Below, piece after piece: positions 2,836-4,303 of a stretch of 7,008 bases of DNA; the first letter of the stretch is position 1, and each line of letters opens with the position of its first letter. The stretch comes from an uncultured Bacilli bacterium (GTDB taxonomy: Bacteria; Bacillota_I; Bacilli_A; RF39; UBA660): positions 1-7,008 of the forward strand of contig CALVUU010000077.1 of assembly GCA_944363655.1 (NCBI GenBank), written 5' to 3'. The notes below the pieces were generated by a model, which did no database searches, had not been told where the DNA came from, and was given only the letters and a program-made list of their open reading frames with translations. Both the position numbers and the translations under genes were made by a program.

Positions 2836-4032
2836 TTAAATCATCTCACTTACTATTTTTTCTTTATCGCTTAAAAGTTCTACTAATTCATCTATTTCTC
2901 TTTCAGTATTATAAAAATATAAACTTACTCGCAAAGAATTAGTAACACCCGTAGCATTTTTCACAAGTTTGGCACAATGATTGCCAGCTCTAACACAAAT
3001 ATTATATTTATTTAAATAATATGCCACATCTTGCGAAAATACACCATCGACATTAAAAGCAACAATGCCACTATCCGCTTCTAAATTGAGGATATCTATG
3101 TGTGGAATTTTAACCAACTTTTCAATTAAATATTCTCTTAACTTAATTTCTCTTTCATGTATTTTATCCATTCCTATTTTTTTAATATATTCAATTGCTG
3201 CACCTAAACCAATAACACCAGCAATATTCGGAGTTCCCGCCTCAAGTCTAGTAGGCAAATCGACATAATATACTTCACTTGGAGAATCAAATGATTCATT
3301 CATTCCTCCACCTAAATTGATAGGTTCTAAATTTTCCAACAATTCTTGTTTACCATATAAAACTCCAATTCCTGTTGGTCCTAACATTTTATGTGCAGAA
3401 AACGCTAAAAAATCGACATCAAGATCTTGAACATCAACTTTCATATGGGCAACACTTTGAGCGCCATCGACAACAACAAATATATTATTTTCATGAGCAA
3501 TTTTACATATTTCTTTTATTGGTCTTACATCCCCAACGACATTAGTAATTTGCGCAAGAGCAATAATCTTAGTTCTAGGAGTAATACTTTTTTTTACATT
3601 ATCGATTGTTACATGTAAGTTATCATCTAAAGGAATAAAATTTATCGTACAACCATAATCATTTACTAATCTAAACCAAGGTAAAACATTAGAAGCATGT
3701 TCCGTTGTTGTAATTAATATCTCATCCCCCGGTTCTACTATATTTGCAAAAAAACCTGTTGCTATCATATTAAGAGACTCTGTTGCACCACTTGTAAAAA
3801 CAACTTCTTCTTTTGTCTTAGCATTAATAAATTCTACAACTAAATCCCTAGCACTTTCATATTCCATATCAACTTTATATGATATATCATAATCTCCGCG
3901 ATGCGCATTAGCATTATATTTCTCATAATATTCAGTCATTTTATCAATAACTACTTGAGGTTTAAAACTTGTTGCTCCATTATCTAAGTATATTATATCT
4001 TGTTTTAGCATTGGAAAGTCTTCTCTATTCAT
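2836..4032 (-). CDS. sufS: SufS-type cysteine desulfurase
   Basis: A 398-residue PLP-dependent class V aminotransferase-fold enzyme. It converts L-cysteine to L-alanine and leaves a persulfide on its catalytic Cys, which SufU collects. Landmarks are YLDNGATSFKP near the N-terminus, TTTEHASN (His112, stacking on PLP), VVVDGAQSVAH (Asp189, Gln192), the Schiff-base lysine in FSAHKMLGPTG (Lys215), and the active-site RAGNHCA (Cys353). The last replaces the more usual RAGHHCA by one residue. The short Cys loop and the HKMLGPTG context place it in the SufS (type II) rather than IscS group. The length is normal. The start is ATG 4032, with GAAGG 9 bases upstream. A promoter-like pair lies at 4125-4153, giving a leader of about 85 nt. 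It directly abuts sufU. No sufB, sufC or sufD is visible here. Confidence 0.95.
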   Translation of the reverse strand: MNREDFPMLKQDIIYLDNGATSFKPQVVIDKMTEYYEKYNANAHRGDYDISYKVDMEYESARDLVVEFINAKTKEEVVFTSGATESLNMIATGFFANIVEPGDEILITTTEHASNVLPWFRLVNDYGCTINFIPLDDNLHVTIDNVKKSITPRTKIIALAQITNVVGDVRPIKEICKIAHENNIFVVVDGAQSVAHMKVDVQDLDVDFLAFSAHKMLGPTGIGVLYGKQELLENLEPINLGGGMNESFDSPSEVYYVDLPTRLEAGTPNIAGVIGLGAAIEYIKKIGMDKIHEREIKLREYLIEKLVKIPHIDILNLEADSGIVAFNVDGVFSQDVAYYLNKYNICVRAGNHCAKLVKNATGVTNSLRVSLYFYNTEREIDELVELLSDKEKIVSEMI

Positions 4033-4124
4033 TATATTATACCTTCTTTCTTATTTTACTATATTTTATTCTCTAAACTAAAAATCACTTATAACAAAGG
4101 CCTTGTCCCCTCAAAACTTGTATT

Positions 4125-4171: not shown

Positions 4172-4199
4172 TTGACTTAAAATAAATATTTGTTATAAT
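4172..4199 (+). promoter_or_regulatory. Strong extended -10 promoter of the candidate small RNA
   Basis: TTGACT (4172-4177), a 16-nt spacer and a perfect TATAAT (4194-4199) preceded by TGT give a near-consensus sigma-A promoter with an extended -10. It is the best promoter match I see in the window. A start 7-8 bases downstream falls on G4207, exactly the first base of the long stem of the downstream structure. No plus-strand gene lies downstream, so its product should be a noncoding RNA. Confidence 0.7.
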
Positions 4200-4206
4200 A
4201 AAACAT

Positions 4207-4303
4207 GTAGAGCAACATCCATTTTTCATATTTTTACTAAAGGTATTTTTATACCTTTGATGTTGCTCTACAAAAAAACACAAAATTAATTTTGTGTTTT
4301 TTT
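4207..4303 (+). ncRNA. Candidate structured small RNA, about 97 nt, family unknown
   Basis: Three helices are perfect by eye. Helix A is a 13-bp closing stem, GTAGAGCAACATC (4207-4219) with GATGTTGCTCTAC (4259-4271). Helix B is an 8-bp hairpin, AAAGGTAT (4239-4246) with ATACCTTT (4251-4258), closed by a TTTT loop and stacked directly on A. Helix C is the terminator, starting at the very next base after A. The only sizeable unpaired stretch is 19 nt (4220-4238), U-rich, between the 5' strand of A and B. The predicted transcription start coincides with the first base of A. No open reading frame of useful size exists; the longest ATG frame is nine codons with no ribosome binding site. It does not resemble SRP RNA, 6S RNA, tmRNA or RNase P as I know them. 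The gene is divergent from sufS and converges on the AI-2E-family gene. Alternatively it is a short inverted-repeat element (MITE), but no target duplication flanks it and a MITE would not explain the promoter and terminator. Confidence 0.6.
4272..4303. terminator. Bidirectional terminator for the small RNA and the AI-2E-family gene
   Basis: A perfect palindrome of 16 bp per arm (AAAAAAACACAAAATT mirrored) gives a hairpin ending in seven T on both strands. On the plus strand it ends the candidate small RNA. On the minus strand it starts at the stop codon (4304-4302) of the AI-2E-family gene and ends that operon. Confidence 0.85.

Follow-up and report, generated by a model that had tools for sequence, protein, structure and literature searches.

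A putative small RNA family of uncultured Bacilli with a conserved loop complementary to translation start regions

Results

The DNA analysed here, called the window throughout, is a stretch of 7,008 nt from the genome of an uncultured Bacilli bacterium (contig CALVUU010000077.1). It is AT-rich and encodes on its minus strand a tex-like S1/HHH protein, an unknown protein of 237 aa, a NifU-like protein, the cysteine desulfurase SufS (Aminotran_5; 2836-4032) and a transporter of the AI-2E family (PF01594; 4302-5414). The putative small RNA (sRNA) gene lies on the plus strand, between the 3' end of the AI-2E gene, its convergent neighbour, and the 5' end of sufS, its divergent neighbour. Downstream of it the window contains no plus-strand gene, and a tRNA and tmRNA search of the window gave no match. 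The minus strand also encodes, at 339-2372, a 677-aa protein without Pfam match that contains a HELAH stretch, which we take to resemble a zinc-protease motif.

The 5' leader of sufS contains an element of about 20 nt, GGACAAGGCCTTTGTTATAAGT (4087-4108, minus strand), that the sRNA-bearing genomes retain with minor variation, even G305, in which the sRNA lies elsewhere. In a search of three genomes, about 0.7 Mb of each, with up to four mismatches allowed, the element was found before sufS in all three and at one further site, with four mismatches. It could be an operator or an RNA signal.

The sRNA gene is preceded by a promoter (4172-4199, plus strand) formed by the -35 box TTGACT (4172-4177), a 16-nt spacer and the -10 box TATAAT (4194-4199), extended by a TG at 4191-4192. 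With 11 of 12 positions matched, it scores highest among the 56 promoter-like matches of the window, only three of which, this one included, have the TG. The total of such matches is at shuffle level (56 versus 58.9), so the promoter assignment rests on score, place and conservation. TTGAC...TATAAT, with the one-base variant TACAAT allowed, stands just upstream of the sRNA in all 19 sequences of the family. The spacer motif AATAAAT (4181-4187) is identical in 18 of the 19 promoters, the exception being locus L104. This conservation exceeds the needs of a plain promoter and possibly reflects a regulator site. As a motif shared by a regulon, AATAAAT gave many weak AT-rich matches, none of them convincing.

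Transcription is predicted to start at about 4205-4207. The RNA from 4207 to 4303 folds at -38.0 kcal/mol compared with -10.06 +/- 2.33 kcal/mol in 200 shuffles (z -12.0), none of which was as stable. The fold returns the perfect 13-bp outer stem that had been proposed, with its 5' arm at 4207-4219 and its 3' arm, supported also by covariation, at 4259-4271. It also returns the 8-bp inner hairpin with a UUUU tetraloop (4239-4258; arms 4239-4246 and 4251-4258), leaving a 19-nt strand exposed (4220-4238). The U-rich character and exposure of this strand had been recognised from the sequence, while its partial invariance and its relation to translation starts had been missed. The terminator expected after the stem begins on the very next base and occupies 4272-4303, although with 14 bp, a 4-nt loop and a U7 end rather than the 16 bp first described. 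It has only two G-C pairs and is missing from a consensus terminator scan because that scan asks for three. Since the hairpin is almost symmetric and the stop codon of the AI-2E gene on the minus strand overlaps it, its use on both strands is possible, and it may serve both the sRNA and the convergent AI-2E transcript. Folds of the relatives also give hairpins with U-rich ends after the stem, weakest for L003 and L004.

Relatives were collected through homologues of the AI-2E protein, by alignment and a GTDB contig scan, and 80 of 497 loci were kept. The ten closest (L001-L010; nine titled 'uncultured Bacilli bacterium' and one 'uncultured bacterium') all have the promoter, the outer stem and the loop in the same place. 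A covariance model run on the window and the 80 loci matched strongly only the window and these ten (E 1e-8 or better); minus-strand and stray rows at E 0.04-0.7 were set aside. Each genome of the ten holds one strong copy, and none was found in six others searched alongside. Rows at E 0.1-0.8 in that search, one of them falling on the opposite strand of the true G007 copy, were discarded. In the genus of G001, 18 of 30 genomes have one clear copy; the same 30 are drawn when starting from G008. Promoter, outer stem and loop are also present in eight genomes beyond the ten closest relatives, so their retention is not due to chance. The genomes of the sRNA-bearing group measure about 0.9-1.7 Mb.

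A nineteenth genome of the genus, G317, matched the model at E 0.034 under the E 0.05 threshold (L105 1501-1547, minus strand) and was set aside as chance; about one match of this quality is expected in 30 genomes. The matching segment is an 11-bp hairpin around UUUUCAUAUUUUUAUUAU, with a loop similar to that of the sRNA, lacking ACYAAA and the inner hairpin and having no evident promoter or terminator. It lies antisense across the start of a frame that reads as FtsW/RodA-like. Among the genomes that lack the sRNA, G317 is the nearest to the bearers. Matches in wider samples (3 of 291 genomes of the family and 12 of 385 of the order, under stricter filters with few candidates scored per genome, so that distant relatives may be missed) all belong to the same genus except that of G432 (E 0.0045), which lacks the core loop and was set aside. 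The sRNA was thus found outside the genus in none of the 291 family and 385 order genomes. Also set aside were 13 model matches at E 0.01-0.6 in 14 viral contigs that had been pre-selected for the loop pattern.

All 30 genomes of the genus have sufS, and the sRNA adjoins it in 17 of the 18 other bearers; in G305 sufS is on a different contig. The AI-2E gene is adjacent in 16 of the 18 (partly by sequence reading), the exceptions being G305 and G306. The relative with the most similar SufS (95% identity), G306, carries other DNA in place of AI-2E, and in G305 the sRNA has neither neighbour and follows tex-like and 237-aa-like genes. As its neighbours differ in these two genomes, the element behaves as an independent gene. 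Twelve genomes of the genus lack the sRNA (G288 and G312-G322); in these, a coding sequence that reads as sufD stands directly before the sufS start. In the bearers sufS stands apart, and the rearrangement of the suf genes coincides with the presence of the sRNA.

An 11-sequence MAFFT alignment, which was not fitted to the covariance model, has 11 of 21 pairs changed on both sides (24 cells), a value reached by none of 500 shuffles; a count of further pair types on the same alignment was not significant (104/500). With 19 sequences (18 distinct), in an alignment that was fitted to the model and so leans to structure, 15 of 21 pairs are changed on both sides (48 cells, 92.7% paired). No shuffle out of 500 was as high on any of five measures, and sliding the partner by one to three columns left at most six such pairs. 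RNAalifold's own prediction on this alignment recovered 18 of the 21 pairs. Changes on both sides affect 10 of the 13 outer and 5 of the 8 inner pairs. L101, L102 and L103 have a degenerate or shifted inner hairpin, and L008/L009 differ in the upper part of their outer stem. It thus seems to be the clamp and the loop that are essential, and not the inner hairpin. The plus strand is favoured by the G-U cells, 16 of which would turn into A-C mismatches if the minus strand were the RNA; the reverse holds for 4.

There is no conserved reading frame on either strand of the 19 sequences. Rfam 15 gave no match at the gathering threshold in the window or in the 18 relative loci; at a relaxed threshold the window returned 17 rows, the best at E 0.12 and all far below gathering. 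The relatives support the original prediction of a stand-alone noncoding RNA gene: its stems are conserved and covary in both alignments, it matches no Rfam family at gathering score, no frame is conserved in it and no plus-strand gene lies downstream in the window.

The most constant part of the RNA is the exposed strand, with consensus UUUUCAUAUUUUUACYAAA. Over 19 sequences, 13 of the 18 unpaired columns counted are invariant; the outer stem has only 4 such columns out of 26, and the inner stem 4 out of 16. Within 4224-4237, UUUCAUA and UUUUAC are identical in all 19, the only variation there being the length of the U-run between them (4-7). Start regions in three genomes (G004, G010 and G001) consist of a G-rich Shine-Dalgarno stretch, with GGUGA common among the start regions listed, followed by a spacer and a second codon that are both rich in A. 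If G-U pairs are allowed, the invariant loop is complementary to starts of this kind.

Target scans covered about 0.68-0.71 Mb of each of these genomes, in which a simple custom ORF caller gave 706, 728 and 766 genes, paired into 599 orthologue groups; energies are plain duplex energies that leave accessibility aside. In an offset scan (500 of 1775 genes sampled over the three genomes, 24 dinucleotide shuffles), the mean duplex energy of the loop reached its minimum at the offset centred on the start codon, at -6.11 versus -4.35 +/- 0.40 kcal/mol (z -4.36). The 22 other offsets had z from -2.9 to +0.1, most below -1, so the baseline itself is mostly negative. Averaged over orthologous start regions, the loop beat all 60 dinucleotide and all 30 mononucleotide shuffles. 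Part of this signal is composition, as the reversed loop scored nearly as well at starts (-6.42 versus -6.88) and slightly surpassed the real loop at offset -10. Shuffling everything but UUUUCAU gave an equally good loop in 3 of 30 trials, and shuffling the first six letters before an unchanged 3' part did so in 1 of 30, which was the real sequence again. Complementarity to start regions is thus supported as a general statistical property of the loop.

No individual target stands out in these scans. The best single orthologue group was equalled or beaten by 13% of shuffles by its mean and by 7% by its worst member, and the top candidates are mostly generic starts, many of them AUG-AAR. The predicted start regions listed include those of an fmt-like gene (G001_438), of an ftsQ-like gene (G010_32) and of a conserved triple led by G001_553, named by sequence reading. 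The exact 14-nt complement GTAAAAATATGAAA, a pattern that does not fit the sRNAs of G003, G005 and G305 with their different U-run, was not enriched in the 30 genomes (6 sites outside sRNA genes versus 13 for the reversed control). One of the six is start-like by eye: L122 in G321, a genome without the sRNA. Hfq was found in none of the 30 genomes of the genus by a search that was positive in 5 of 14 control genomes, B. subtilis included; the RNA would therefore work without it.

Discussion

We describe what looks like a genuine, uncatalogued small RNA gene, common to one group of uncultured Bacilli. The gene would give a noncoding RNA of about 97 nt, transcribed from the plus strand by a strong sigma-70-type promoter, presumably in response to some controlling signal, and ended by an intrinsic terminator. 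Several of its features are those of trans-encoded base-pairing sRNAs. It has its own promoter and terminator, it holds no conserved ORF and, judged by sequence only, it is not a cis element. Its RNA structure is conserved with compensatory changes, and its conserved exposed seed is statistically complementary to mRNA starts, a property that the reversed loop partly shares.

We lean, with rather modest confidence, towards an antisense RNA that represses translation initiation of several mRNAs without Hfq. The long covarying stem would act as a clamp keeping the fixed single strand exposed, and this strand would pair in trans with several mRNAs around the ribosome-binding site and start codon, in regions of the GGUGAAAAU-AUG-AAA kind. 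Pairing would block 30S binding and thereby repress translation, with no need for Hfq. A broader version, which we find unlikely, is a genus-wide 'anti-start' RNA, a general Hfq-free brake on translation initiation and not a regulator of a few dedicated targets. The loop would then mirror the average start of the genome (spacer, AUG and second codon, with G-U pairs to GGUGA), and its effect would be strongest on AUG-AAA-AAA starts, a type that membrane and secreted proteins often have.

The main rival to an antisense mechanism, not probable but to be taken seriously, is a stand-alone sRNA whose invariant U-rich strand is the site of a protein (a chaperone, a ribonuclease or a regulator) that it titrates or carries, the start-codon match being a by-product of AT-rich sequence. 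A short antisense seed needs fewer than the 13 nucleotides fixed over 19 sequences, and both the lack of an enriched perfect target and the preference of the reversed loop for start regions agree with a protein site. However, the complementarity peaks at the offset centred on the start codon, a U-run varying from 4 to 7 would be odd in a rigid protein site, and Hfq, one candidate partner, was found in none of the 30 genomes. Antisense pairing with one dedicated partner, for instance an RNA of a mobile or variable locus, instead of many mRNAs, seems improbable. It is suggested by a 19-nt sequence, TTTTGGTAAAAATATGAAA, in G006 and G307 (L126 1493-1515; L125 near 1500), which is complementary to the loop and its edge (with one G-U in G307) and lies between a surface-type gene and a Snf2-like gene, upstream of the latter (names by sequence reading). 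This sequence may be either a coincidence or the dedicated partner. Yet it is found in two related genomes only, probably through one event, and away from a start codon; an exact 14-nt site away from the sRNA gene occurs in just one of the other 16 bearers, G305, where its surroundings are different (L106).

The remaining explanations differ on the nature of the element itself. That the functional RNA is the minus strand, as a 3' structure of the AI-2E operon transcript, we hold to be very improbable. The element is palindromic, its terminator can work both ways and the minus strand also folds (z -8.5), but the G-U bias of 16 to 4, the plus-strand promoter in 19 of 19 sequences, the model score in the window (90.5 bits for the plus strand versus 26.7) and the absence of an adjacent AI-2E gene in G305 and G306 all speak for the plus strand. 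A cis-regulatory or divergent control element of sufS, even less credible, would explain why 17 of 18 relatives have this intergenic region in common with sufS; against it, no plus-strand gene follows the sRNA in the window, and in G305 sufS keeps its own leader on another contig while the sRNA lies beside another gene. We give hardly any credence to a reduced 6S RNA binding RNA polymerase. Like 6S RNA (RF00013), the sRNA has a long stem with an unpaired internal region and is encoded in single copy; unlike it, its opening is one-sided and fixed in sequence, its size and shape differ and its locus has no RF00013 match. As 26 of the 30 genomes encode a separate 6S RNA above the RF00013 cut-off, we reject this identity. 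A small protein gene can practically be dismissed. The window does contain an antisense ATG frame of 33 aa, but over the 19 sequences this frame ranges from 3 to 33 aa with no common length or sequence past the first residues, and sense frames of at least 8 aa are present in only four of them.

Our preferred reading has counterparts among known sRNAs. In Bacillota, FsrA, RoxS (RsaE) and IsrR are single-gene trans-acting sRNAs that block ribosome binding and pair through C-rich regions. The sRNA described here would be of the same single-gene, trans-acting kind and has no Rfam match at gathering score. Similar in design is NfeR1 (alpha-r14), which is Hfq-independent, carries ultraconserved unpaired anti-Shine-Dalgarno motifs on variable stems, CCUCCUCCC on three hairpins, and silences at the translation initiation region (PMC10746234). 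With alpha-r14 and the related AbcR1/2 of alpha-proteobacteria our sRNA would share an intergenic origin and action in trans, and with NfeR1 a fixed unpaired motif on variable stems and the start-site pairing without Hfq that we propose. In contrast to NfeR1, it has one U-rich motif, complementary to the spacer and AUG-AAA, and the two differ in hairpin number and are unrelated by sequence or lineage. Membership of alpha-r14 was rejected, since the CCUCCUCCC motif is absent and the loop is instead UUUUCAUAUUUUUACYAAA. Literature searches on RF39 and Bacilli small RNAs and on metagenome noncoding RNAs found no paper, and a search on anti-Shine-Dalgarno sRNAs gave none on this bacterial group among the matches listed.

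In summary, on the evidence of its sequence this appears to be a real and new sRNA family, of a trans-encoded kind that is already known. With it, this group of uncultured Bacilli gains an sRNA family supported by covariation. The pairing of its loop with translation starts suggests a role in tuning protein production. Since the loop points at the start codon and not only at the Shine-Dalgarno sequence, and since the Hfq search found none in these genomes (0/30), it would provide a clear and testable case for antisense regulation without Hfq.
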